Source: Nitrosococcus watsonii C-113
Lineage (GTDB): Bacteria > Pseudomonadota > Gammaproteobacteria > Nitrosococcales > Nitrosococcaceae
Assembly: GCF_000143085.1 (NCBI RefSeq)
Contig: NC_014315.1
Coordinates: forward strand, 1,177,001-1,241,000
Reading direction: 5' to 3'
Length of the DNA stretch: 64,000 bases
The number at the start of each line of letters is the position of its first letter. Position 1 is the stretch's first letter. The position numbers and the translations under genes are program-made. Below are positions 50,170 through 64,000 of the stretch, one piece after another. The notes below the pieces were generated by a model. The model had not been told where the DNA came from and did not search any database. It worked only from the letters and a program-made list of their open reading frames with translations.

Positions 50170-51246
50170 ATGAAAAAATTTGCTTTCTGTTTAGTGCTGA
50201 TAATAGGAACGGCTTATGCTAGCCATGTTCTTGCCAAAAAGCATGGTGACGAGCTGATGCAGCAGGCCCAGTCCCTATTTAAACCGATTCCCACCGAGCT
50301 GCAGGAGATAGAGGGAATTACGCTGACGCCAGAGAGGATTGAGCTGGGTAAATGGCTTTATTTTGATCCTCGCCTCTCCAGAAGCTGGCTAATTAGCTGT
50401 AATACTTGCCATAATCTTGCCCTTGGTGGAGTGGATCTAGAAGAAACTTCTATTGGCCATGGATGGGCAAAGGGACCCCGTAATGCGCCTACGGTACTCA
50501 ATTCCGTATTCAATTTTGCTCAATTCTGGGATGGGCGGGCGGAAGATCTCCAAGCTCAGGCGAAAGGACCGGTGCAGGCGGGCGTAGAGATGAATAATAC
50601 GCCGGAGCGGGTGGAGCAGACTCTGAAAAGCATCCCGGAATATGTTCAGCGCTTTCGGAAGGCCTTTCCCGATGACTCTAACCCCGTCACTTTCGATAAT
50701 ATGGCGGATGCTATCGAAGCTTTTGAAGCCACTCTACTGACTCCTGGATCTCCTTTTGATCAATACCTTAACGGTGATTCCCAGGTACTGTCGAAAGCAC
50801 AAAAAAAGGGGCTTAAACTCTTTATGAATAAAGGCTGCTCAAGCTGCCACAATGGAATTAATGTGGGTGGGGGAAGCTATCAACCCTTTGGGGTTGTAGA
50901 AAAACCCGGCAGCAAAATTCTTCCGGAAAAAGATCAAGGGCGGTTTACGGTGACGGAAACAGCCAGCGATAAGTACGTTTTTAAAGTCCCTTCTTTGCGT
51001 AATATAGAGTTAACTCCTCCCTATTTTCATTCTGGACAGGTATGGGATCTAGAACAGGCAGTTGCTATTATGGGCTCATCACAGCTTGGTATAAAACTTA
51101 GCCGTAATGAAACCGCCGCTATTGTAACTTTCTTGAAAACCTTAACTGGCGAGCAACCCAGGGTGGAATATCCTATTCTTCCACCCCATACTAAAGGAAC
51201 TCCGCTGCCGGTGATCGGGGTTTCTAGCAATGCCGCCGGGCATTAA
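50170..51246 (+). CDS. ccpA: Diheme cytochrome c peroxidase
   Basis: A 358-residue periplasmic enzyme with a cleavable signal peptide (about 22 residues, ending in VLA). It has two heme c motifs, CNTCH at residues 77-81 and CSSCH at 223-227. Other family motifs are LGKWLYFDPRLSRS, FWDGRAEDLQAQA, GPVQAGVEM, FDQYLNGD, LRNIELTPPYFHSG and the ending region VAIMG. It reduces hydrogen peroxide with electrons from small cytochromes c. The MauG/methylamine branch is an alternative, but the loop GPVQAGVEMNN and the general layout fit bacterial CcpA. A strong terminator hairpin follows. Confidence 0.92.
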   Translation: MKKFAFCLVLIIGTAYASHVLAKKHGDELMQQAQSLFKPIPTELQEIEGITLTPERIELGKWLYFDPRLSRSWLISCNTCHNLALGGVDLEETSIGHGWAKGPRNAPTVLNSVFNFAQFWDGRAEDLQAQAKGPVQAGVEMNNTPERVEQTLKSIPEYVQRFRKAFPDDSNPVTFDNMADAIEAFEATLLTPGSPFDQYLNGDSQVLSKAQKKGLKLFMNKGCSSCHNGINVGGGSYQPFGVVEKPGSKILPEKDQGRFTVTETASDKYVFKVPSLRNIELTPPYFHSGQVWDLEQAVAIMGSSQLGIKLSRNETAAIVTFLKTLTGEQPRVEYPILPPHTKGTPLPVIGVSSNAAGH

Positions 51247-53212: not shown

Positions 53213-55021
53213 GTGATATCCAACCGGACGGTTAGCACGACTCAAGGAAATGTGCCCCAATCCCAATGGGAGGCAGGGGATTTACTGGTGGCCTATTTAG
53301 CCCAATTATCGGTGGACTATGTGTTTGGGGTGCCAGGAGGGGCTATCGAGCCCTTGTACAATGCCTTGGCTCGCAGTGCCCGTAAGGGGGGGCCGCGAGC
53401 GATAGTTGCCCGCCACGAAACCGGGGCCGCCTTTATGGCCGATGGCTATGGGCGTCGGACGGGCAAACTAGCGGTTTGCTGCGCCACGACCGGGCCGGGC
53501 GCCACCAATCTCATCACAGGGATTGCTTCGGCCTACGAGAATCGCATTCCCATGTTGGTGATTACCGCCCAGACGGCTTTGAGTCAGTTTGGGCGAGGAG
53601 CTTTTCAGGATTCTTCCTGCACTGGCATTGATACCGTGAACTTGTTTCAGCATTGCACTCGCTATAGCACTTTGGTCTCCCATGTGGCGCAATTGGAACA
53701 TAAACTCAGTACGGCGATCATGACGGCTTATCAGTCTCCCAATGGCCCCACTCATCTGAGTATTCCTTTAGATATATTACGCAGTACCGCTTCGGTTAAA
53801 ACTCCTTCCTATCAGCTTGCCGCTTTGCTGCACCGTCCTGCCTTACTAGCTGATGGGGAAGTAAAGTCGCTTTGCAGCCACATTGTCCAGGCGAGGAAAG
53901 CAGTGTTTGTGGTGGGGGAAGATTGCCGCGAAGCGATTGGCGCTATTTTGAATCTCGCCTCTTTAATTCAGGCCGAAGTGGTCACTACGCCCCATGGTAA
54001 AGGATTGGTCAGTCTTTATCATCCTCTATTCCGCGGTGTTATTGGTTTTGCTGGGCATCGCAGTGCCAGCGAGACTCTGTCCGATCCTGAAGTGGACACC
54101 GTGGTGGTGTTTGGCGCTAACCTGGGAGAATGGGCAAGCAATGGTTGGGACACCGAAGCTCTTTTGAATGATCGTCTCATCCATGTGGAGAATGTAGAGG
54201 GAAACTTGACCCGCACGCCCATGGCACGCTTGCACGTACGGGGAACCATTAGCACGATTTGCGAACGAGTCTTAAGCTACCTCCGCCAGCACCCGCCAGC
54301 AAAAGAAGAACCGGCGCTTGGAATAGAGCGCAGGCAGCCCGACTCCCCCCTGCGGGAAGTTTTAAGACATGAGCCAAAGTGGCGCTTCCAGCTTGATGAG
54401 GAGGCAAAGTATTACGATGATTCTACCCCCATTAAGCCGCAGCGGTTAATGCGGGAGCTTACCCGGCTGTTTCCTCCCAATACCCGCTTCCTAGCCGATA
54501 CAGGAAACAGCATAGCTTGGGCAATCCACTACTTACACCCTTCCGGTCAGTCTGATAGGAATGGGGAGCCATTTCGCGGCTGCTTGGAGTTTGCCTCCAT
54601 GGGTTGGGCGATTGGCGCTGCCGTAGGCAGTGCTTTGGGCGCTCCAGGTAATCCGGTGGTCTGCATCACGGGGGATGGTAGCTGGCTCATGAGCGGTCAG
54701 GAAATCACTGTGGCAAGCCAGGAACAACTGCCCGTGATTTTTATTATCCTCAATGATGCGGCGTTAGGGATGGTCAAACATGGTCAGCGGTTGGCCCAGG
54801 CTGAGGCTATTGGCTTCGAACTTCCGGCAATCAATTATTGCGCTTATGGAGAGGCCATGGGAGTACCCAGCTATATTATCCGTTCTCCCCAAGATCTTAT
54901 GGCGCTTGATGTTAAGGCCATTTGCGAGCGGCAAGGCCCTACCTTGCTCGATGTGCGAGTCGATCCCGAGGAGGTGCCCCCCATGAAAACCCGGATGAAG
55001 ATATTGGGAGGGTTGCAATGA
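53213..55021 (+). CDS. Acetolactate synthase-like ThDP enzyme
   Basis: A 602-residue thiamine-diphosphate enzyme of the acetohydroxyacid synthase/oxalyl-CoA decarboxylase superfamily with the three classical domains. The N-terminal domain has YVFGVPGGAIEPLYNAL and the ThDP-activating Glu69 in RHETGAAFMADGYGR. The C-terminal ThDP/Mg motif is GDGSW at residues 487-491 followed by ILNDAALGMVKHGQ with the partner asparagine. The QFGRGAFQDSS segment matches the acetolactate synthase substrate loop. No small regulatory subunit (IlvH) gene is beside it, and it overlaps by four bases with a citrate-synthase-like gene, so it is probably not a standard IlvB. Reaction unknown; carboligation or decarboxylation of a 2-oxo acid is likely. 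Confidence 0.85.
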   Translation: MISNRTVSTTQGNVPQSQWEAGDLLVAYLAQLSVDYVFGVPGGAIEPLYNALARSARKGGPRAIVARHETGAAFMADGYGRRTGKLAVCCATTGPGATNLITGIASAYENRIPMLVITAQTALSQFGRGAFQDSSCTGIDTVNLFQHCTRYSTLVSHVAQLEHKLSTAIMTAYQSPNGPTHLSIPLDILRSTASVKTPSYQLAALLHRPALLADGEVKSLCSHIVQARKAVFVVGEDCREAIGAILNLASLIQAEVVTTPHGKGLVSLYHPLFRGVIGFAGHRSASETLSDPEVDTVVVFGANLGEWASNGWDTEALLNDRLIHVENVEGNLTRTPMARLHVRGTISTICERVLSYLRQHPPAKEEPALGIERRQPDSPLREVLRHEPKWRFQLDEEAKYYDDSTPIKPQRLMRELTRLFPPNTRFLADTGNSIAWAIHYLHPSGQSDRNGEPFRGCLEFASMGWAIGAAVGSALGAPGNPVVCITGDGSWLMSGQEITVASQEQLPVIFIILNDAALGMVKHGQRLAQAEAIGFELPAINYCAYGEAMGVPSYIIRSPQDLMALDVKAICERQGPTLLDVRVDPEEVPPMKTRMKILGGLQ

Positions 55022-55818
55022 GTGAAGGACGGGAGGTGATTCATAGCCGCATCTGGGAAGAGGTCGCAGCGCCCGATAATCCTTTTGTCGCCGCTGCCTG
55101 CTACTGCTCCGGTTACGACGTCTACGGCGATTTGCTGGGCAAAGCCAGTTGGATCGAATATTTATACCTGCTCCTCAAGCAAGAGCGTCCTTCCCCCAAG
55201 GAGGCCAGACTCTTGGAGGGACTCGCGGTTGCTATCGCTAATCCAGGTCCCCGGGATCACAGTATTCGCGCTGCCATGTGCGCCGGGGTTGGGGGGTCCA
55301 CTTCCGCGTCATCTTTGATGGCTGCGCTGGCGGTGGGCGCCGGTCAGCTAAATGGCGCCCATGAAGTAGCGTCAGCAATGGCCTCGTGGCAGGAATGCGG
55401 TAGGAATTTAATGGCCTGGCAGGAGCGTCTCCAACATCCCCCACAAGAGGAACGGGCGGATGTGTGGTTGCCCCTAGAACATCCTCCCGGTTTTGATCCC
55501 CATGGCGCCAGTTGCGCCATGCCAGTGCAACAAACTTTAGCTTTTCTGGCAAAAAACAGTCCGGGAGAAGCCCTTTCCTGGTTGCAAACCCATCGGCCGG
55601 AACTTGAGACCGCGGCCAACTGCCCCTTGGCAATGACCGGGGTGGCGGCCGCGGCGATGAGTGATCTGGACTTCAATATTCAGCAGGGTGAAATGCTGTA
55701 CCTGTTGCTCCGCTTGCCTGGGGCTGCCGCCCATGCCTTGGAACAGCAGGTATACGGTTGGCGGCGCTATCCTTTTTTTAGAAATGGTTTGGAATTAAGC
55801 GATGAACCGCAAGGGTAG
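55018..55818 (+). CDS. Citrate synthase/citryl-CoA lyase-like protein 1
   Basis: A 266-residue protein of the citrate synthase superfamily, resembling small citryl-CoA lyase-type proteins. It begins IWEEVAAPDNPFVAAACYCSGYDVYGDLLG and contains NPGPRDHSIRAAMCAGVGG, then the GQLNGAHE stretch at residues 109-116, HPPGFDPHGASC, and a C-terminal DLDFNIQQGEMLYLLLRLPGAAAHALEQ. The position that in citrate synthase holds the catalytic histidine of the GPLHGGA motif appears here as Asn112 in GQLNGAH. I start it at the ATG at 55018, overlapping the ThDP enzyme stop; an in-frame start at 54922 lies inside that gene. It probably forms a complex with the next gene. Confidence 0.8.
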   Translation: MSEGREVIHSRIWEEVAAPDNPFVAAACYCSGYDVYGDLLGKASWIEYLYLLLKQERPSPKEARLLEGLAVAIANPGPRDHSIRAAMCAGVGGSTSASSLMAALAVGAGQLNGAHEVASAMASWQECGRNLMAWQERLQHPPQEERADVWLPLEHPPGFDPHGASCAMPVQQTLAFLAKNSPGEALSWLQTHRPELETAANCPLAMTGVAAAAMSDLDFNIQQGEMLYLLLRLPGAAAHALEQQVYGWRRYPFFRNGLELSDEPQG

Positions 55819-55841
55819 GGCAGTGCGATTACCGTATCTCG

Positions 55842-56675
55842 ATGAGTGGCGGGATAAAAATAGGAATAATGGATATGCAAGGGCCTAAATATCTTTTTAA
55901 AAATGAAGACCACTGGGTGACCAATATGGGCGCCTGGTTTCCAGGGGAGCGAGTGGTTTTCCGTGGCAAGGATTTATTTCAAGAGCTAAAAGATCTTCCC
56001 TGGATGGGTTTGCTGCTTTATGGCATTACGGGACGAATTCCTAACGGAAAACAGATTCGGCTGTTTGAAGGTATTTGGACTTTATGTAGCAGCTATCCTG
56101 ATCCGAGATTATGGAATAACCGGGTTGCCGCGCTGGCAGGTACCACTAGAAGCACTGCTGCGTTAGCCCTCAGTGCGGGAAATGCGGTTTCGGAAGCTTC
56201 AATTTATGGACGGCGGCCAGATATCCGAGCTATTGATTTTCTGTTTCGGATTAAAGGTCAGCTAGAGGCAGGTGCTGAGATAGAAGAACTTGTGAGAAAA
56301 GAATTAAAAAAATATAAAATTATTCCCGGATATGGCCGTCCTATTACACGAAAAGATGAGCGCATTGAACCCCTCCTGTCCTTAGCCGAAGAATTAAATT
56401 TTTCCCACGGCCCCTATGTGAAGCTTACATTTACGATCGAGGAAATTTTGTTGCAGGGACGGTGGCGTTTGTATATGAACATTGCCGCCCTAGCAGCAGC
56501 ACTAGCGGCCGATCAGGGATTATCTCCACACGAATATTATCATTATTTGGTTTTATGTTTTTCTGGGGGCATATTGCCTTGTTATTTGGATGCAGTGAGA
56601 AAACCAGAAGGTACCTTTTTTCCGCTGTCTTGTGATCGCATTCAGTATGAGGGTGAACGTCGTAGGGTTTGGTGA
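55842..56675 (+). CDS. Citrate synthase/citryl-CoA lyase-like protein 2
   Basis: A 277-residue second member of the same superfamily, only distantly similar to the previous gene. It has a beta-sheet opening (GPKYLFKNEDHW), LPWMGLLLYGITGRIPNGKQ, PDPRLWNNRVAALAGTTRSTAALALSAGNAVSEASIYG, PGYGRPITRKDERIEPL and a C-terminal MNIAALAAALAADQGLSPHEYY. The GNAVSEAS stretch (residues 113-120) lies where citrate synthase has GPLHGGA, and PGYGRPI lies where it has GFGHRVY, so both active-site histidines seem absent. An alternative start at the ATG at 55875 has AGGA nine bases upstream. Probably a heteromeric or regulatory partner of the preceding protein. Confidence 0.75.
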   Translation: MSGGIKIGIMDMQGPKYLFKNEDHWVTNMGAWFPGERVVFRGKDLFQELKDLPWMGLLLYGITGRIPNGKQIRLFEGIWTLCSSYPDPRLWNNRVAALAGTTRSTAALALSAGNAVSEASIYGRRPDIRAIDFLFRIKGQLEAGAEIEELVRKELKKYKIIPGYGRPITRKDERIEPLLSLAEELNFSHGPYVKLTFTIEEILLQGRWRLYMNIAALAAALAADQGLSPHEYYHYLVLCFSGGILPCYLDAVRKPEGTFFPLSCDRIQYEGERRRVW

Positions 56676-56713: not shown

Positions 56714-58846
56714 ATGTATTTTTCATTGATTACTCGTAGTGTCTTTTGCTTGTTAATTTTGTATACAGCCAATGCGTTGGCTGTAAATACGGGAATGGAT
56801 GATGAAGAAGCCTTGCTTAATTTATATGGCGGCGAGGAAATGATTAGTCTTGCTACCGGCAATAGTAAGCCCATTTCCAGGGCGCCTGCCATTGCAACCG
56901 TTATCACTGCGGAAGACATTAAAGAGATAGGCGCCACGGATCTAGATCAAGTGCTGGAGACCGTGCCAGGATTACACGTGGCAAGAAACCCTAGTGGATA
57001 TAATCCTATTTATACCTTTCGGGGAATTTTCTCCCAATTCAATCCACAGGTGTTAATGTTAATTAATGGCATACCTATTACTAATCTTTTTTTTGGGAAT
57101 AGACATCAGATATGGGGTGGTATGCCGGTACAGTCTATTGCTCGGGTTGAAGTTATTCGGGGACCAGGGTCGGCAATTTATGGGGCGGATGCCTTTGCCG
57201 GCGTTATTAATATCATTACCAAAACCAAGGAGGATATCGGGGGCACTGAAATAGGCGGCCGTGCTGGTAGCTTTAATAGTTGGAATGGCTGGGCGCTCCA
57301 TGGAGATAACTGGGGTGGTTTTGATGTGGCGGTCATGCTGGAATATGGTGATACCGACGGTCAACGGAGAATCATTAATGCGGATGCTCAAACTTTTTTT
57401 GATAGCCAGTTCGGTACGGAGGCTTCCTTAGCCCCTGGCCCGGTAAATTTGCAGCGGGAAAATATTGATGCCCGTTTGGATATCAGCCGGGAGCATTGGC
57501 GTCTGCGGGCAGGCTTGCAGCGGCGGAGTAATTTTGGAACCGGCGCTGGCGTTGCGCAAGCTCTAGATCCCAATGGCCGCTTTGCCAGTAACCGCTGGAA
57601 CGTGGATCTGACTTATCATAATCCTACATTCTTTAGTGAAAATTGGGATGTCATGGCGCAAGCGAGCTATTTTAATACCAGTCAGGAAGTTGAGCATGAT
57701 GTCCGGCTTTTTCCACCGGGAGCGGACTTTAATAGTTCCCCCGGAATAGATTTTCCACAGGGCGTGATTGGTAATCCTGAAGTTTTTGAACGCCATGCTC
57801 GGTTTAAAACCTCAGCCTTTTATACCGGCTTTGAACGGCATCAGATTCGCGTGGGTGCGGGTATGCGTTATGGTGATCTCTATGATGTCAAAGAGGTCAA
57901 AAACTATGAATTTGATTTTAAAACGGGCTTGCCCCGACCTCTTGGAGGCTTAAGGGACGTCACCGGGAATCTATCCCAGGTTTTTTTGCGTGAACGGGAT
58001 CGTAAGAATTATTATGCTTTTCTTCAGGATGTTTGGAATTTTGCCAATGATTGGGAATTCACCGCGGGTGTGCGGTATGATCATTTCTCTGATTTTGGCG
58101 ATACCATTAATCCCCGCCTCGCCTTGGTTTGGGCCACTCGTTATGATCTGACGACTAAGCTCCTATATGGCCGCGCTTTCCGTGCTCCTTCTTTTGCCGA
58201 ATTATTCAATATTAATAATCCGGTGGCCATAGGTAATCCTAATCTTGATCCAGAGACAATTGAAACGGTAGAGCTAGCCTTTGATTACCGGCCCACCAAT
58301 GCGCTGCATTTGGCCCTGAGTCTATTTCACTATCGCTGGGACGATATCATTCAATTTGTGCCCGATCCTGGGACTAGCGTCAATGTTGCTAAAAATGCTG
58401 GTAAGCAAAAGGGCCTTGGGTTAGAGCTGGAAGCAGACTGGGCGCTTACTTCTACTTTTCATCTTTTAGGCAACTATGCTTTTCAACATTCAACAGATGA
58501 GAAAACAGGTAAGAATGCAGGCTATGCGCCTCAACATCAGATTTATTTGCGTGGAAGCTGGGAGTTTCTTCCCCATTGGCGTTTAACACCACAGCTTAAT
58601 TGGGTTATCGATCGGGCGCGCCCCGCTGGCGATAACCGGCCTGCTATCAATAATTATAGTATTTTTGATTTGACTCTACGCCGGACAGCGATCAAAAAAC
58701 ATTGGGAAGCTGCCTTCTCCGTACGTAATTTATTTGATAATGATGCCCGTGAACCTAGCCCGGCAGGCAACCCAAGCGCTTTAATTCCCAATGATCTTCC
58801 CTTATCTGGACGAAGTTTTTTTGGGGAAATTCGGTTTCGTTTCTAG
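56714..58846 (+). CDS. TonB-dependent outer-membrane receptor
   Basis: A 710-residue outer-membrane protein with a signal peptide of about 23 residues (ending in ALA) and a short N-terminal extension. The plug domain spans about 50-165 (RAPAIATVITAEDIKEIGATDLDQVLETVPG and RVEVIRGPGSAIYGADAFAGVINIITK). The 22-strand barrel follows, with Tyr/Phe-rich strands, NLDPETIETVELAFDYR and a C-terminal phenylalanine (EIRFRF). The N-terminal region lacks a clear TonB box that I can name. The plug wording recalls receptors for siderophores, vitamins or oligosaccharides without fixing the ligand. It is followed by a strong hairpin, then a binding protein and a sensor kinase, suggesting a shared ligand. Confidence 0.9.
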   Translation: MYFSLITRSVFCLLILYTANALAVNTGMDDEEALLNLYGGEEMISLATGNSKPISRAPAIATVITAEDIKEIGATDLDQVLETVPGLHVARNPSGYNPIYTFRGIFSQFNPQVLMLINGIPITNLFFGNRHQIWGGMPVQSIARVEVIRGPGSAIYGADAFAGVINIITKTKEDIGGTEIGGRAGSFNSWNGWALHGDNWGGFDVAVMLEYGDTDGQRRIINADAQTFFDSQFGTEASLAPGPVNLQRENIDARLDISREHWRLRAGLQRRSNFGTGAGVAQALDPNGRFASNRWNVDLTYHNPTFFSENWDVMAQASYFNTSQEVEHDVRLFPPGADFNSSPGIDFPQGVIGNPEVFERHARFKTSAFYTGFERHQIRVGAGMRYGDLYDVKEVKNYEFDFKTGLPRPLGGLRDVTGNLSQVFLRERDRKNYYAFLQDVWNFANDWEFTAGVRYDHFSDFGDTINPRLALVWATRYDLTTKLLYGRAFRAPSFAELFNINNPVAIGNPNLDPETIETVELAFDYRPTNALHLALSLFHYRWDDIIQFVPDPGTSVNVAKNAGKQKGLGLELEADWALTSTFHLLGNYAFQHSTDEKTGKNAGYAPQHQIYLRGSWEFLPHWRLTPQLNWVIDRARPAGDNRPAINNYSIFDLTLRRTAIKKHWEAAFSVRNLFDNDAREPSPAGNPSALIPNDLPLSGRSFFGEIRFRF

Positions 58847-58908: not shown

Positions 58909-58993
58909 AGTTTTATATTTGCAGACTGTTAACCTCATCAGGTTATTTGAAAATAAAAGTATTGCGGCCATAAATTTCGATAAGGATAATTCG

Positions 58994-59950
58994 TTGACAG
59001 CTGAAAAAATAAGAAATTGCCGTCAATATTTTTTTTTACTTGTATGGTTATTTCTTGGTGGCGCAGGCATGGGGCCAGTAGCATTGGCTGATTCGCCAGC
59101 AATTGCTGTTATCTATCCAGATATCAGGGAGCCTTATCAGAGTATCTTCCTTAAAATTATAAAAGGGATTGAGGATAAGATAAAAAAAACCGTCAAACTT
59201 TATCCATTAAAAAAAAATTATGACCCTGAAGTCATTAAATATCATCTCAGAAAAGCACGGATACAGGGTGTTATTGTCCTTGGAAGCAGGGGGTTATCAG
59301 CAGCGAAAGATCTACAATCTATGTTTCATGTTGTTATAGGTGCAGTCTTGATTTCTCCTGGCGGGGAGAATCTAACAGGGATATCATTAACACCTGATCC
59401 TGAAATTATTTTTCAGAAATTGCTAAAAATTGATCCTGGCATTAAGCAAATTACTCTGATTTACAATCAAGATCAAACCGAATGGCTTATTGATCGAGCA
59501 GTAAAAGCAGCTAGATTTTATGGTATCGGAATTAATACATTCTCTGTGAAAAATATTCGTGAAGCGGCTGCGCTGTACCGGGATATTTTACCTCTGCTGA
59601 AAGAAGGAAAAGATGCGATTTGGTTGCCACAGGATTCTACTATTGATGAGCAGGCTATTCTGCCGCTAATTCTGCAAAAAGCCTGGGAACAAAATCTGGT
59701 TGTGTTTTCCAGTAATTTAGCACATATACCGAGAGGCGCCTTATTTGCCCTCTATCCCGATAATGAAAGGATGGGACAGAGCCTCGCTGATTTGATGTTA
59801 AAAAAAATAACAAATGGTAGAGAATCTCTTGGCATAAGTCCATTGCGTGATCTTTTAATTGCCGTCAATACGCGTACTGCCGATCATCTAGGGCTTAATT
59901 TAATGAATCGGATGAAGCAAGATTTTGATCTGATTTTTCCGGCACGATAG
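58994..59950 (+). CDS. ABC transporter substrate-binding-like protein (PF04392 type)
   Basis: A 318-residue periplasmic protein. A signal peptide (YFFLLVWLFLGGAGMGPVALA) precedes the mature part, which has two lobes of the ABC_sub_bind type: AVIYPDIREPYQSIFLKIIKGIED, then VIVLGSRGLSAAK, VIGAVLISPGGENLTGISLT, IKQITLIYNQDQTEWLI and a final NERMGQSLADLML. I use the TTG at 58994 because AAGGAT lies seven bases upstream and the signal peptide then begins normally; a TTG at 58919 would add 25 hydrophilic residues. No permease or ATPase gene is adjacent. Lying nine bases before a giant sensor kinase, it probably works as a ligand sensor rather than a transporter part. Confidence 0.82.
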   Translation: MTAEKIRNCRQYFFLLVWLFLGGAGMGPVALADSPAIAVIYPDIREPYQSIFLKIIKGIEDKIKKTVKLYPLKKNYDPEVIKYHLRKARIQGVIVLGSRGLSAAKDLQSMFHVVIGAVLISPGGENLTGISLTPDPEIIFQKLLKIDPGIKQITLIYNQDQTEWLIDRAVKAARFYGIGINTFSVKNIREAAALYRDILPLLKEGKDAIWLPQDSTIDEQAILPLILQKAWEQNLVVFSSNLAHIPRGALFALYPDNERMGQSLADLMLKKITNGRESLGISPLRDLLIAVNTRTADHLGLNLMNRMKQDFDLIFPAR

Positions 59951-59959
59951 GAGCACAGG

Positions 59960-62900
59960 GTGAAAAGGTTATTACATATTTTTCGAAGAAAAAAAGGATT
60001 CCGCCAGCAATTGGTGATGACTTTTACTGTTGGAATCATTTGTTTAGCCTTGCTTTCCTCTTTTGCTATTTCAACTTTATCCAGCCGCACGGTTCGTACG
60101 ACCTTACTTGAGCAGGGACGCCGCGCTACTGAGACTTTTGCGGCTCAAAGCACACTAGCCCTGCTCTATCAGAGCGCCGATAATGCTAAGGAGGCAGCCC
60201 GTGCAACGCTAGCTTTTCCTGATATTCAGGGGGTAGCCATTTATGATCTAGAATACCAAGTATTGTTATCCGAAGGACAGGAATCTTTGTTGCCTGCAGA
60301 GCATACGCTGTGGCCAAGAATGCTATGGCTAGAACGAGAAACAGAAAATGCTTGGTATTTTGTGGCCCCGGTTTATGCACGCCAGGGTAATACCGATCTG
60401 GAGGATTCGCCATTTTTAGCCAATCCGCCAGAACCCGAGCTCATTGGTTTTGTGCGGGTAATGATGGGTAAAGGTACTTTAAAAACCCTAGCAAGGGATA
60501 TTTTGCGTGGTAATTTATTGGTGTCTATCACTTTGGCTGCTGTGTTACTTCTTCTCTTGCTTGCGATTACGGCGCGGATGACTACGCCGCTTAAAAACCT
60601 AGCGGAAAAAATGAAACAGGCTGAGCTAGGAGAAAAAAAAGTGCGCGCTAAAGTGGATGGGCCAAAAGATATTATGGACATGGAGGGCGCTTTTAATACC
60701 ATGATGACCGTCCTGGAGGCCCGGGAGCAAGAATTGAAAAAAGCGCGGGATGCAGCTTTAGAATCTGCCCGTATCAAAGGAGAATTTGCCGCTAGTGTTA
60801 GCCATGAGCTTCGTACTCCTCTCAATGGGGTAATAGGAATGCTTGAGTTGTTAAGCAATACGGAATTGACTCCCAATCAGCGCGAATATGTGCAAGTAGC
60901 CTGCGGTTCAGGGGAAACGCTATTAGATCTCATCGGCAATATACTGGATTTTTCACGTATCGAGTCGGGGAAGTTTAAACTTGATTCCGTTGATTTTTAT
61001 TTACAAGAAACCTTGGATGATGTTATCGGTTTGCTTGCTGCTCAAGCACAGCGGAAGGACTTGGAAATAGGGTATGTGGTAGCGGAAAATGTTCCGCTAT
61101 TTATGCGGGGAGATGCGACCCGGATTCGGCAGATTCTTATCAATTTGATGGGCAATGCCGTCAAGTTCACCGAGCAAGGAGAAGTATCCATTGAGGTCAG
61201 GCTGCTCGAGAAAAAAGCAAAAAAATTAGTGCTCCATTTTGAAGTAAGGGATACGGGCATTGGGATTCCCCTAGAGTTTCTGGCGCGGGTATTCGAAGCT
61301 TTCTCCCAAGCGGATAGTTCTACTACCCGTAAGTATGGAGGCACCGGTTTGGGTTTAGCTATTTGTCGTCAGCTGGTGGATTTAATGGGGGGTGACCTTG
61401 GAGTAGAAAATAACCTTGATAAAGGAAGCCTCTTCTGGTTTACCGTCCCCTTAGAAGAAATGATAATGCCTCAAGCAGGGCAGGCATTGACTAATAAGGC
61501 GGAAGTGGCTGGGTTACGATTGCTGATTGTCGAAGACAGCACAGTGAGCCGGCGCTTTCTAGGCCAGACTTTTAGCTCTTGGGGAATGTACCATGGTTGT
61601 GCTGAAAACGGGCAACAGGCTCTCAAAATGCTGCGTAGCGCTGTGGCTGAGGGACGGTCTTATGACCTTGTGCTGGTGGATGAAAATACGCCTGATTTGA
61701 AGGGTCTTGAGCTGGCACAGCAGATTGCCGAAGATTCTTTGATTGCCTCCGTTAAGATTATATTGATGGGGCGCCAGCGCCATCCTGTCTCTGATATTTC
61801 CCCTCTATCTGGCGTGGTGAATTATGTAGCTAAGCCAGTGCAACAATCTTCCTTATATAACACGATTATAACCGCCGTAAAACAAAATAAGGAGGTAGTG
61901 TCGGAAACTTTATCTGCGGCCATAGAAGAAACGGAATTTTCCGATCGCCGCGTCTTGGTCGTTGAGGATAATAGGGTCAATCAGCAGGTGGCCGTGGGGA
62001 TGTTGGAGAGATTGGGTTGCCGGGTTGAGGTGGTGAGTAATGGTCAAGAAGCGCTGGATGCGATGTCCGGCAAAGTATATGAGTTAGTGTTGATGGATTG
62101 TCATATGCCGCAGATGGACGGTTATGAGGCGACTCGCCAAATTCGAATTCGGGAAGCTGGCAAGAAACAAGTACCCATCATTGCCATGACGGCTAATGTT
62201 AGAAAGGGTGACAGTGATAAATGTATCTCAGCAGGTATGAATGATTACCTGCCAAAGCCGCTTCGGTTGAGTGTATTGCGAGATAAATTGCGGCATTGGC
62301 TAGGTACGGGTTCTGCAGATACAGATTCCGAAAGTACTCAAATGGAAAGCGAGGAGCGTGAAACTCCTCTGGATCTGCTTGCCTTGAATCGACTCCGCAC
62401 CAGTGTTAGAGATGCTTTTCCCAGGATGGTGGAAACTTTTATTGAGGATACTTCGCTTTATTTGGATATTCTGCAAAAAGCGATCTTCGAGGACAAAGTC
62501 CACAAAGTAGGGGAAATGGCCCATAGTGTTAAGGGTAGTGCTAAGAATTTTGGCGCTAACCGGTTCGCCTCTATTGCTAAGCAATTAGAAGATTTAGGAC
62601 GTTCTGGTTCTCTGGAAGGAGCCAAGGAACTGTTTGATAAGTTATTCTCTGAATACTCGTTTGTTAAAAGGGCATTACAGCAAGAGAACGAGTCCGGCAA
62701 AGAAGTCTGTCTCTTTAACAATAGAAAAAAATCACGGGTGCTTATCGTTGACGATGATCGAACTATGCGTATGGCGCTGCGTAATGTTTTGGAAAAAGGG
62801 GGTTATTGGATTGATGAGGTCATAAACGGTAGTCAGGCGCTGGCATTTTGTAAACAGCAGATGCCGGACCTGGTTTTGATGGATGCGGTCATGCCTGTAT

Positions 62901-64000
62901 TGGATGGCTTTAACGCCTGTGCTCAGATACGAGATTTGCCAGGCAGCAAGCATACACCAGTGCTTATTATTACTGCCCTAGATGATGATCATTCCATTGA
63001 AAGTGCTTTTTCTGCGGGGGCTACTGACTATATTCCAAAGCCGGTGCATTTTTCTGTATTGCAGAAACGGGTTGCTCGTCTTCTCGATGCTAGTAGGGCT
63101 GAAAAGGATATCCACCAATTGGCTTATCATGATGTGCTGACAAATTTGCCAAACCGTACCCTGTTTCACAAGCAGCTTGGGGGGGTAATCAATCGGTCTC
63201 ATTTGAGAGGAGAAAAGTTTGCTGTTCTATTCCTTGATTTGGATCGCTTCAAGCTGGTTAATGATACCCTGGGTCATGAGGTGGGGGATTTGCTGCTGAA
63301 GGCGGCGGCTGATCGGATTGTAGGCTGCCTTCGCTCAAAGGATATGGTGGCCCGGTTAGGAGGAGATGAGTTTACAGTTATCCTGGAACAAATTGAATCC
63401 CCCCGAATAGCGGCGGAAGTGGCTGCTAAGATTTGTAGTGTTCTCTCTAAACCATTCGTTTTCTCGGGCCAGGAGATGTATATCGGCACCAGTATAGGTA
63501 TTTCCCTCTATCCTGATGATGGCGAAGACGCAAGCATGCTCATTAAACATGCGGATACCGCTATGTTTCGCGCTAAAGAGCAAGGCAACAGCTATCAATT
63601 TTATGAAAGAGGTATGGAGACGGCCGCTGTTAAGCGACTAGGCTTGGAAGCCGAACTTCGCCGGGCATTGGAGAAAAATGAATTTACCCTTTATTATCAG
63701 CCGCAAATAGATCTTGGCACGGGAGAAATTACCACCCTGGAAGCGTTGATACGTTGGGATCATCCAGAGCATGGTTTAATTCCGCCGTCAGAGTTTATTC
63801 CCCTAGCGGAAGAAACCGGGCTTATCGCCTCCATTGGCGTCTGGGTATTGCGGGAAGCTTGTACCCAAATGCGGTCTTGGCTGCAGCGGGAATTCGGACC
63901 TTTCCGTATTGCTGTGAATGTATCGGGCCGGGAGTTAGAAAGGGAGGAGCTAATTGATAAGATTGTAACCATATTGAAAGAAACAGACGTGCCTCCAAAA
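59960..64000 (+). CDS. Hybrid sensor kinase with REC-REC-HPt-REC-GGDEF-EAL (3' end outside window)
   Basis: At least 1347 residues, open to the window end. A GTG start with GGAG six bases upstream. Domains in order: TM helix (about 20-42), periplasmic domain (about 45-175), second TM helix (about 180-205), HAMP, histidine kinase with phospho-acceptor His282 (SVSHELRTPLNG) and ATPase (NAVKFTEQGE, DTGIGIP, GGTGLGLA), REC1 with Asp574, REC2 with Asp713 (LMDCHMP), an HPt domain with His855 (AHSVKGSAKNFG), REC3 with Asp975, a GGDEF domain with intact GGDEF (1134-1138) and an RxxD inhibitory site five residues before the RL of ARLGGDEF, and an EAL domain beginning at 1261 (EALIRWDHP). It should convert a periplasmic signal into c-di-GMP synthesis or breakdown through an internal phosphorelay. 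Confidence 0.92.
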   Translation, partial: MKRLLHIFRRKKGFRQQLVMTFTVGIICLALLSSFAISTLSSRTVRTTLLEQGRRATETFAAQSTLALLYQSADNAKEAARATLAFPDIQGVAIYDLEYQVLLSEGQESLLPAEHTLWPRMLWLERETENAWYFVAPVYARQGNTDLEDSPFLANPPEPELIGFVRVMMGKGTLKTLARDILRGNLLVSITLAAVLLLLLLAITARMTTPLKNLAEKMKQAELGEKKVRAKVDGPKDIMDMEGAFNTMMTVLEAREQELKKARDAALESARIKGEFAASVSHELRTPLNGVIGMLELLSNTELTPNQREYVQVACGSGETLLDLIGNILDFSRIESGKFKLDSVDFYLQETLDDVIGLLAAQAQRKDLEIGYVVAENVPLFMRGDATRIRQILINLMGNAVKFTEQGEVSIEVRLLEKKAKKLVLHFEVRDTGIGIPLEFLARVFEAFSQADSSTTRKYGGTGLGLAICRQLVDLMGGDLGVENNLDKGSLFWFTVPLEEMIMPQAGQALTNKAEVAGLRLLIVEDSTVSRRFLGQTFSSWGMYHGCAENGQQALKMLRSAVAEGRSYDLVLVDENTPDLKGLELAQQIAEDSLIASVKIILMGRQRHPVSDISPLSGVVNYVAKPVQQSSLYNTIITAVKQNKEVVSETLSAAIEETEFSDRRVLVVEDNRVNQQVAVGMLERLGCRVEVVSNGQEALDAMSGKVYELVLMDCHMPQMDGYEATRQIRIREAGKKQVPIIAMTANVRKGDSDKCISAGMNDYLPKPLRLSVLRDKLRHWLGTGSADTDSESTQMESEERETPLDLLALNRLRTSVRDAFPRMVETFIEDTSLYLDILQKAIFEDKVHKVGEMAHSVKGSAKNFGANRFASIAKQLEDLGRSGSLEGAKELFDKLFSEYSFVKRALQQENESGKEVCLFNNRKKSRVLIVDDDRTMRMALRNVLEKGGYWIDEVINGSQALAFCKQQMPDLVLMDAVMPVLDGFNACAQIRDLPGSKHTPVLIITALDDDHSIESAFSAGATDYIPKPVHFSVLQKRVARLLDASRAEKDIHQLAYHDVLTNLPNRTLFHKQLGGVINRSHLRGEKFAVLFLDLDRFKLVNDTLGHEVGDLLLKAAADRIVGCLRSKDMVARLGGDEFTVILEQIESPRIAAEVAAKICSVLSKPFVFSGQEMYIGTSIGISLYPDDGEDASMLIKHADTAMFRAKEQGNSYQFYERGMETAAVKRLGLEAELRRALEKNEFTLYYQPQIDLGTGEITTLEALIRWDHPEHGLIPPSEFIPLAEETGLIASIGVWVLREACTQMRSWLQREFGPFRIAVNVSGRELEREELIDKIVTILKETDVPPK

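Follow-up and report, generated by a model that had tools for sequence, protein, structure and literature searches.

The 64,000-nucleotide stretch of Nitrosococcus watsonii C-113 DNA analyzed here (contig NC_014315.1, positions 1,177,001 to 1,241,000; hereafter the window) carries six consecutive genes on one strand, encoding a thiamine diphosphate (ThDP)-dependent enzyme, two proteins with a predicted citrate-synthase fold (CIT1 and CIT2), a TonB-dependent outer-membrane receptor, a periplasmic substrate-binding protein and a hybrid histidine kinase (Table 1). Judged from comparison of their sequences, these genes form a module, in that the catalytic residues of the ThDP enzyme are kept, CIT1 and CIT2 are nearly always paired, and the genes of all three are genetically linked to those of the receptor, binding protein and kinase. 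An earlier note on this DNA had singled out the ThDP and CIT genes, and that three-gene unit is real; the receptor, binding protein and kinase had been overlooked. Because these three genes belong to it, the likely role of the system shifts from carbon metabolism to the making and sensing of a small molecule, and we regard it as an evenly balanced proposition that the module produces such a molecule in the cytosol and detects it on the periplasmic side.

Conservation of the unit was followed in two sets of loci. A search of 369 genomes of the window's class with CIT1 gave 44 matches at E ≤0.001, comprising 28 strong matches (<1e-60, own genome included), 13 divergent (1e-18 to 1e-33) and three weak, and loci were fetched for all 27 other strong matches and for 12 of the 13 divergent ones (G270 was left out). 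The named scan returned 151 CIT1 relatives from a limited candidate list, and counts out of 80 refer to the best 80 of these; the two sets overlap, likely through shared contigs (e.g., L033/L072 and L036/L078). In all 27 strong loci the ThDP gene lies at most ~1.1 kb upstream on the same strand and CIT2 lies behind CIT1, with the qualifications that L040 shows only the end of the ThDP gene, at a contig edge, and that L048 has only a fragment of CIT2, as well as a short-chain dehydrogenase/reductase (SDR) gene between ThDP and CIT1. Within the stretches covered, 20 of these loci also contain the TonB receptor and 17 the binding protein; the corresponding numbers among the 12 divergent loci are 11 for CIT2, 11 for the receptor and seven for the binding protein. 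Closer to the window, CIT1 occurs in five of the six genomes searched of its family and in none of 53 others of the order, and the other four family loci likewise hold the ThDP enzyme, CIT2, receptor and binding protein.

The three genes of the earlier note are far from rarely adjacent in the named scan. CIT2 follows CIT1 in 79 of the 80 loci and the ThDP gene is present in 78, in 74 of these within 1.2 kb upstream on the same strand, while the receptor lies within 6 kb of CIT1 in 67 loci and the binding protein in 50, some of the misses being near contig ends. These loci span Gammaproteobacteria, Betaproteobacteria (Collimonas, Gallionella, Dechloromonas), Geobacter sp. OR-1 and a metagenome-assembled genome of the Desulfuromonadaceae. 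In one genome the ThDP enzyme and CIT1 are a single open reading frame (ORF) of 886 residues (L047:7168-9828), a natural fusion. As side observations, a locus labeled Planctomycetota (L104) is perhaps a mis-binned contig, L139 has a second CIT1-CIT2 pair in tandem behind the first, and the receptor, CIT2 and ThDP genes of L061 (6900-12400) are fragmented, either through decay of the whole cluster or through sequencing errors. A plasmid search with CIT2 gave no match, and one with CIT1 gave eight distant places; citryl-CoA lyase is the annotation at seven of them, and at the eighth no gene is listed.

The tie to the sensory genes was assessed by co-occurrence in the 369 genomes, with cut-offs of E ≤1e-80 for the binding protein, ≤1e-15 for CIT1 and ≤1e-140 for the ThDP enzyme. 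By these measures the ThDP enzyme is present in 48 genomes, CIT1 in 41, the binding protein in 43 and all three in 34. ThDP enzyme and CIT1 occur together in 39 genomes, as against nine with the ThDP enzyme alone and two with CIT1 alone; G091 and G185 have CIT1 without a ThDP match at 1e-140, and the ThDP gene of G091 is in pieces. The binding protein and CIT1 occur together in 36 genomes, as against seven with the binding protein alone and five with CIT1 alone. Mere proximity is an unlikely cause of this co-occurrence, because some genomes hold the parts on different contigs: in G363 the CIT pair is on C22, the ThDP gene on C38 and the binding-protein and kinase genes on C31, in G253 all three parts lie apart, and in G134 the binding protein does. 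Outside the class the genes form one operon; in three genomes of one genus (L184, L185, L190) receptor, CIT1, CIT2, ThDP enzyme, binding protein and histidine kinase follow one another in a six-gene run with overlaps of 1-11 bases (83 in L184 if the binding-protein ORF is read from its first start), and their proteins are 24-38% identical to the nearest reference proteins. A chance neighborhood is ruled out by this operon and by the co-occurrence of the genes across separate contigs. The linked or co-inherited synthase and receptor genes looked for in a quorum-sensing system are thereby present, kinship among the genomes being uncorrected.

We also considered whether the binding protein and kinase might be independent of the ThDP and CIT genes and merely adjoin them, and to this end inspected the genomes that have no CIT1 match among the 43 in which the binding protein matches strongly, seven in all. 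In G262 the contig ends at the expected CIT place, in G121 a piece of a third type of CIT gene lies at the contig end, and in G235 a gene of this third type stands beside the receptor. This leaves four genomes with a strong binding-protein match and no CIT1 (G288, G269, G342 and G260), of which G260 alone has the ThDP enzyme. The third type of CIT gene was seen near the same TonB receptor and binding protein at L155:8866-9690 and L164:15826-16644. The protein of L155 has no Pfam match and weak citryl-CoA lyase scores, and L164 comes from the same genome (G253) as the CIT1-only locus L056.

Signaling genes adjoin other copies of the module. The kinases of L184, L185 and L190 have a receiver domain at the end and no GGDEF or EAL match. 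In L186-L188 the order ThDP-CIT1-CIT2 is continued by a large gene (~1,730 residues) and then a response regulator; in L186, where the domains were tested, the large protein has Ser/Thr kinase, AAA, GAF and histidine-kinase domains and the regulator is of the LuxR type. Upstream of other copies there are either receiver-SpoIIE and STAS genes or genes for a methyl-accepting chemotaxis protein (MCP), CheW and CheR (one example of each tested). Separately, we noted a YfiR/HmsC-like gene (PF13689; L119:3975-4520), whose cluster occurs in eight of the 80 named neighborhoods and which we take to be another periplasmic link to cyclic di-GMP (c-di-GMP) signaling.

The ThDP enzyme of the window carries the catalytic Glu and the GDG...N cofactor motif of ThDP-dependent enzymes, and the residues concerned (E69, GDG at 487-489, and N514) are kept in 100 of 100 non-identical relatives. 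The family is a discrete clade, in that 48 of the 369 class genomes match at E ≤1e-140 and the weakest of these matches is at 6.6e-191. The enzyme falls under every cut-off among the 25 of 56 NCBIfam matches listed, including that of the acetohydroxyacid synthase (AHAS) equivalog TIGR00118, for which it scores 275.9 bits against a required 538.35, and no gene for IlvH, the AHAS small subunit, adjoins it. These two observations rule out an AHAS and agree with the earlier note's description of an acetolactate-synthase-like enzyme without an IlvH partner. The same genome has a housekeeping AHAS elsewhere (L147), 29% identical to the ThDP enzyme, with small-subunit and ketol-acid reductoisomerase genes alongside, as well as two strong citrate-synthase family matches at other places; since these functions are provided for elsewhere, the ThDP-CIT set is not a housekeeping one. 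The RFDDRVTG stretch of the genome's own AHAS, presumably a motif of the FAD site, reads NLGEWASNG in the ThDP enzyme, where the stretch is not conserved. Searching viral contigs with the ThDP alignment gave three relatives, two of them (L022 and L023) 47% and 44% identical, which are either phage-borne or misassigned bacterial DNA.

For the CIT proteins, structure prediction upheld the fold assigned to them in the earlier note. The AlphaFold2 single-chain model of CIT1 (pLDDT 82.7) has 6hxo_A and 6hxp as its best PDB matches (6hxo_A: Z 18.8, rmsd 4.1 over 234 residues) and that of CIT2 (pLDDT 81.0) has 6hxp (Z 22.6, rmsd 2.3 over 230 residues), so that by their models both proteins have the citryl-CoA-lyase/citrate-synthase fold. 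The two are distant paralogs of one another (profile E 1.8e-10). Neither belongs to the citryl-CoA lyase family, given the cut-offs missed and the catalytic residues lost: the best NCBIfam citryl-CoA lyase scores of the pair are 57.7 and 54.9 bits, where the families require 193-409, while three canonical citryl-CoA lyases run as controls (L064, L182, L183) score 442, 414 and 427 against a cut-off of 261. Against the Pfam PF00285 gathering score of 27 bits, CIT1 lies below at 21.2 and CIT2 slightly above at 28.2.

Active-site residues were read from a small and a large alignment. The small one includes the three lyase controls L064, L182 and L183, which retain the HGG, PGFGH and NID motifs in it, together with one citrate synthase from the same genome as the CIT pair (its L151 row was a wrong ORF and is disregarded). 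The CIT1 counts over 103 sequences exclude the divergent group (L052-L063, 12 loci), the canonical lyase L064 (G412, one of the three weak matches) is excluded from all CIT counts, and dropped before alignment were CIT rows under 235 residues (including CIT2 of L048 and L061), ThDP rows under 540 residues, L026, L027 and L046 (taken as near-copies) and the viral-contig loci L022-L024. At the control columns of CIT2 the catalytic His, His and Asp are each found in 0 of 109 sequences. The first His is replaced by Y122 (SIYGR) in both alignments, with Tyr in 103 of 109, the second by R166 (PGYGRPI, as the earlier note had read that site), and the Asp position is A215 in the window; R166 and R174 are kept in 109 of 109, N213 and C247 in 107 of 109, and the Tyr-Gly and Arg also in seven of seven distant CIT2-type sequences aligned. 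In CIT1 the column of the first His holds N112 (GQLNG) by the small alignment, with His in 0 of 103, and L111 by the large one, with His in four of 103 (the window not among them); the Asp is replaced by T207 (Asp in 0 of 103 and in 0 of 12 of the divergent group). The second control His aligns to a gap in CIT1, and H162 (PGFDPH), present in the window and in 54 of 103, stands one place beyond the His of PGFGH.

The loss of residues is thus real for all three in CIT2 and for the first His and the Asp in CIT1, and it is not a matter of chance because it is conserved across the family. The earlier note had reported the first His lost from both proteins, which holds for both in the window; the site in CIT1 is GQLNG as it had read, and in CIT2 it is Y122 and not the GNAVSEAS stretch it had pointed to. 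Of the shifted catalytic residues it had allowed for, the second His of CIT1 (H162) may be a case, and CIT2 has no His or Asp at the control columns. Its suggestion that one chain supplies the missing residues of the other fails for the first His and the Asp, which neither chain has in the window or in the main group, and the acyl-CoA lyase/ligase pathway it envisaged for the pair is unproven. A putative CIT1-CIT2 heteromer with a different chemistry is nonetheless plausible. Over 90 loci the distances of CIT1 and CIT2 correlate with a Spearman coefficient of 0.67, as compared with 0.44-0.46 for the ThDP enzyme with either (species kinship uncontrolled).

The same losses, of all three known catalytic residues from CIT2 and at least two from CIT1, could mean that the pair has lost catalysis and serves as a metabolite sensor gating the ThDP enzyme, with no product being secreted. 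The invariance of R166 and R174 and the fusion of CIT1 to the ThDP enzyme in L047 would fit such a sensor; the conserved Tyr, Arg and Asn, however, suggest an active site under selection, other enzymes take the place of the pair elsewhere, and the TonB receptor is left unexplained, and we consider a dead sensor quite improbable. The enzymes in question are a methyltransferase in L160, where the order is ThDP enzyme, methyltransferase, receptor, binding protein and kinase, and a KASIII-like protein in L168, where the order is ThDP enzyme, a 130-residue ORF, the KASIII-like gene, receptor, binding protein and a kinase cut by the contig end. Both loci are without a CIT pair and have more distant binding proteins (E 1.8e-65 and 7.6e-46). 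In addition, an SDR at least 61% identical to the query is found in 10 of the 80 named loci (the query's own included), and Asn-synthase-like genes adjoin in L063 and L177, of one genus. The middle gene varies while the core synthase and receptor stay, and this is as expected of a small-molecule pathway with a variable tailoring step.

That the methyltransferase and KASIII-like genes look biosynthetic also speaks against a system of uptake, sensing and breakdown, in which receptor and binding protein would capture an outside compound, the kinase would report it, and its cleavage in the cytosol would fall to the ThDP enzyme and CIT pair. TonB receptors serve in uptake, the CIT fold is a lyase fold, and two alphaproteobacterial citryl-CoA lyases do lie in catabolic-looking loci with dehydrogenases or a CoA-transferase. 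Those two lyases, however, keep His, His and Asp, of which none is left in CIT2 and the first His and the Asp are gone from CIT1; no more catabolic genes are among the conserved neighbor clusters listed; and the direct neighbors of the binding-protein gene, both in loci from the family of the window and in L184, L185 and L190, are receptor, ThDP, SDR or kinase genes and not a permease, the rest of the genome not having been searched for one. Breakdown of an outside compound seems to us rather unlikely.

The sequence of events that we favor begins with the ThDP enzyme, which would ligate a 2-oxo acid to an acceptor to give a hydroxyketone or acyloin-like core. The CIT pair, acting as a heteromer, would carry out the next step on this core, perhaps an acyl-CoA condensation by way of Tyr and Arg instead of His, His and Asp. 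The product would exit the cell, re-enter through the TonB receptor and bind the periplasmic protein, which in its ligand-loaded form would control the histidine kinase, whose output in the window would be c-di-GMP turnover. A metal chelator could follow the same route if the CIT pair made a citrate-like hydroxy-acid metallophore that is re-imported and sensed, in the way that PfeRS senses enterobactin. The receptor does resemble siderophore and B12 receptors (its nearest PDB relative is the colicin I receptor), and the hosts include Gallionella, Sideroxydans and Geobacter. Yet the receptor is under all cut-offs among the 25 of 32 NCBIfam matches listed (150.7 against 223.5 for TIGR01783), the neighbors tested are c-di-GMP, SpoIIE, STAS or chemosensory proteins, and no iron regulator was noticed among the conserved clusters listed, no search having been aimed at one; we hold a metallophore to be very unlikely. 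Because the neighboring outputs are signaling domains, a signal is favored over a sensed chelator. A broader proposal, which we advance tentatively, is that these genes represent a new class of bacterial signaling, in which a ThDP carboligase makes a signal together with a citrate-synthase-fold heteromer, one chain of which carries a Tyr/Arg site in place of His, His and Asp. The signal would be perceived by a TonB receptor, a periplasmic binding protein and a c-di-GMP-linked kinase, and lineages would diversify it by swapping the tailoring enzyme (CIT pair, methyltransferase or KASIII-like protein).

Several observations weigh against the making and sensing of a small molecule. The module contains no exporter, permeases and exporters elsewhere in the genomes not having been searched for. 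Only six of the 12 divergent loci show the ThDP gene within the stretch covered, although it is present in 11 of the 13 divergent-group genomes; nine of the 48 genomes with the ThDP enzyme have no CIT1 match, and in G132, G259 and G261 the stretch covered has the ThDP gene but neither CIT nor receptor genes. Conversely, no binding-protein match accompanies CIT1 in five of its 41 genomes (G128, G158, G193, G257, G374), even with the cut-off relaxed to 1e-20; one of these, G193, is a single complete contig in which the stretch covered holds the ThDP enzyme, an SDR, CIT1 and a fragment of CIT2, but not the receptor. The genomes g379 and g391 (L186-L189) have ThDP-CIT1-CIT2 without receptor or binding protein in the stretch covered, L187 and L189 ending at contig ends. 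The Fisher tests of co-occurrence ignore kinship. Finally, the first His is present in nine of 12 sequences of the divergent CIT1 group, and as the altered sites of CIT1 vary between lineages, they also fit a structural or regulatory role.

In the window the genes are packed as the earlier note had described, the ThDP gene and CIT1 overlapping by ATGA (55018-55021) and the CIT2 ORF starting 23 bases past CIT1. Met12 of CIT2 (codon at 55875) is invariant in an alignment of 28 relatives and on this evidence is the likelier start, in which case the gap between CIT1 and CIT2 may really be 56 bases. A di-heme cytochrome c peroxidase (MauG-like) gene lies upstream (50170-51246) and also in L006; it was not found in stretches L007-L009 and is probably unrelated.

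Table 1. The six genes of the module, in positions of the window.
Gene product	Position	Strand	Size and basis
ThDP-dependent carboligase, acetolactate-synthase superfamily, distinct clade	53213..55021	+	602 aa, GTG start; TPP_enzyme N/M/C domains
CIT1, predicted citryl-CoA-lyase-fold protein without first catalytic His and Asp	55018..55818	+	266 aa, ORF
CIT2, second predicted citryl-CoA-lyase-fold protein; Tyr/Arg replace both His, no Asp	55842..56675	+	277 aa, ORF
TonB-dependent outer-membrane receptor	56714..58846	+	Plug and TonB_dep_Rec_b-barrel domains
Periplasmic substrate-binding protein (PF04392)	58919..59950	+	Domain match; flanked directly by receptor and kinase
Hybrid histidine kinase, histidine-kinase/receiver/Hpt/GGDEF/EAL	59960..64000, continues beyond window (L145:461-4963)	+	1500 aa; domain matches

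If our interpretation is correct, a signaling or metallophore system has gone unnoticed in about one-ninth of the sampled genomes of the window's class (CIT1 in 41 of 369), in hosts that, besides the ammonia oxidizer N. watsonii, include iron-oxidizing genera and marine bacteria in the named scan, and the citrate-synthase fold would be working without its textbook residues. The module is directly testable because it is compact (six genes) and present in named isolates of Collimonas, Marinobacter and Dechloromonas. We found no description of a ThDP-CIT1-CIT2 module in the titles and abstract starts of the open-access literature searched.

Among known enzymes, citryl-CoA lyase (EC 4.1.3.34) and the lyase module of ATP-citrate lyase are like CIT1 and CIT2 in predicted fold, with weak profile similarity; the module differs in having two paired genes with altered residues. 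The AHAS large subunit shares its three TPP-enzyme domains and ThDP-site residues with the window enzyme, which has no small-subunit gene beside it and lacks the RFDDRVTG stretch of the genome's own AHAS. The closest solved relatives of the ThDP enzyme are BbmA and CsmA (PDB 8x3x and 8x3z; E 7e-91 and 3.5e-81); their activity was not found in the literature searched, one review included, and we therefore carry no function over from them. As a system, the module, with its putative ligand, differs from CqsA/LqsA and LuxP-LuxQ in its synthase families (ThDP and CIT); we know of no TonB receptor in either. Quorum sensing by alpha-hydroxyketones (CqsA/LqsA, the former PLP-dependent) couples a self-made small molecule to a kinase, and in LuxP-LuxQ a periplasmic binding protein is paired with a kinase.

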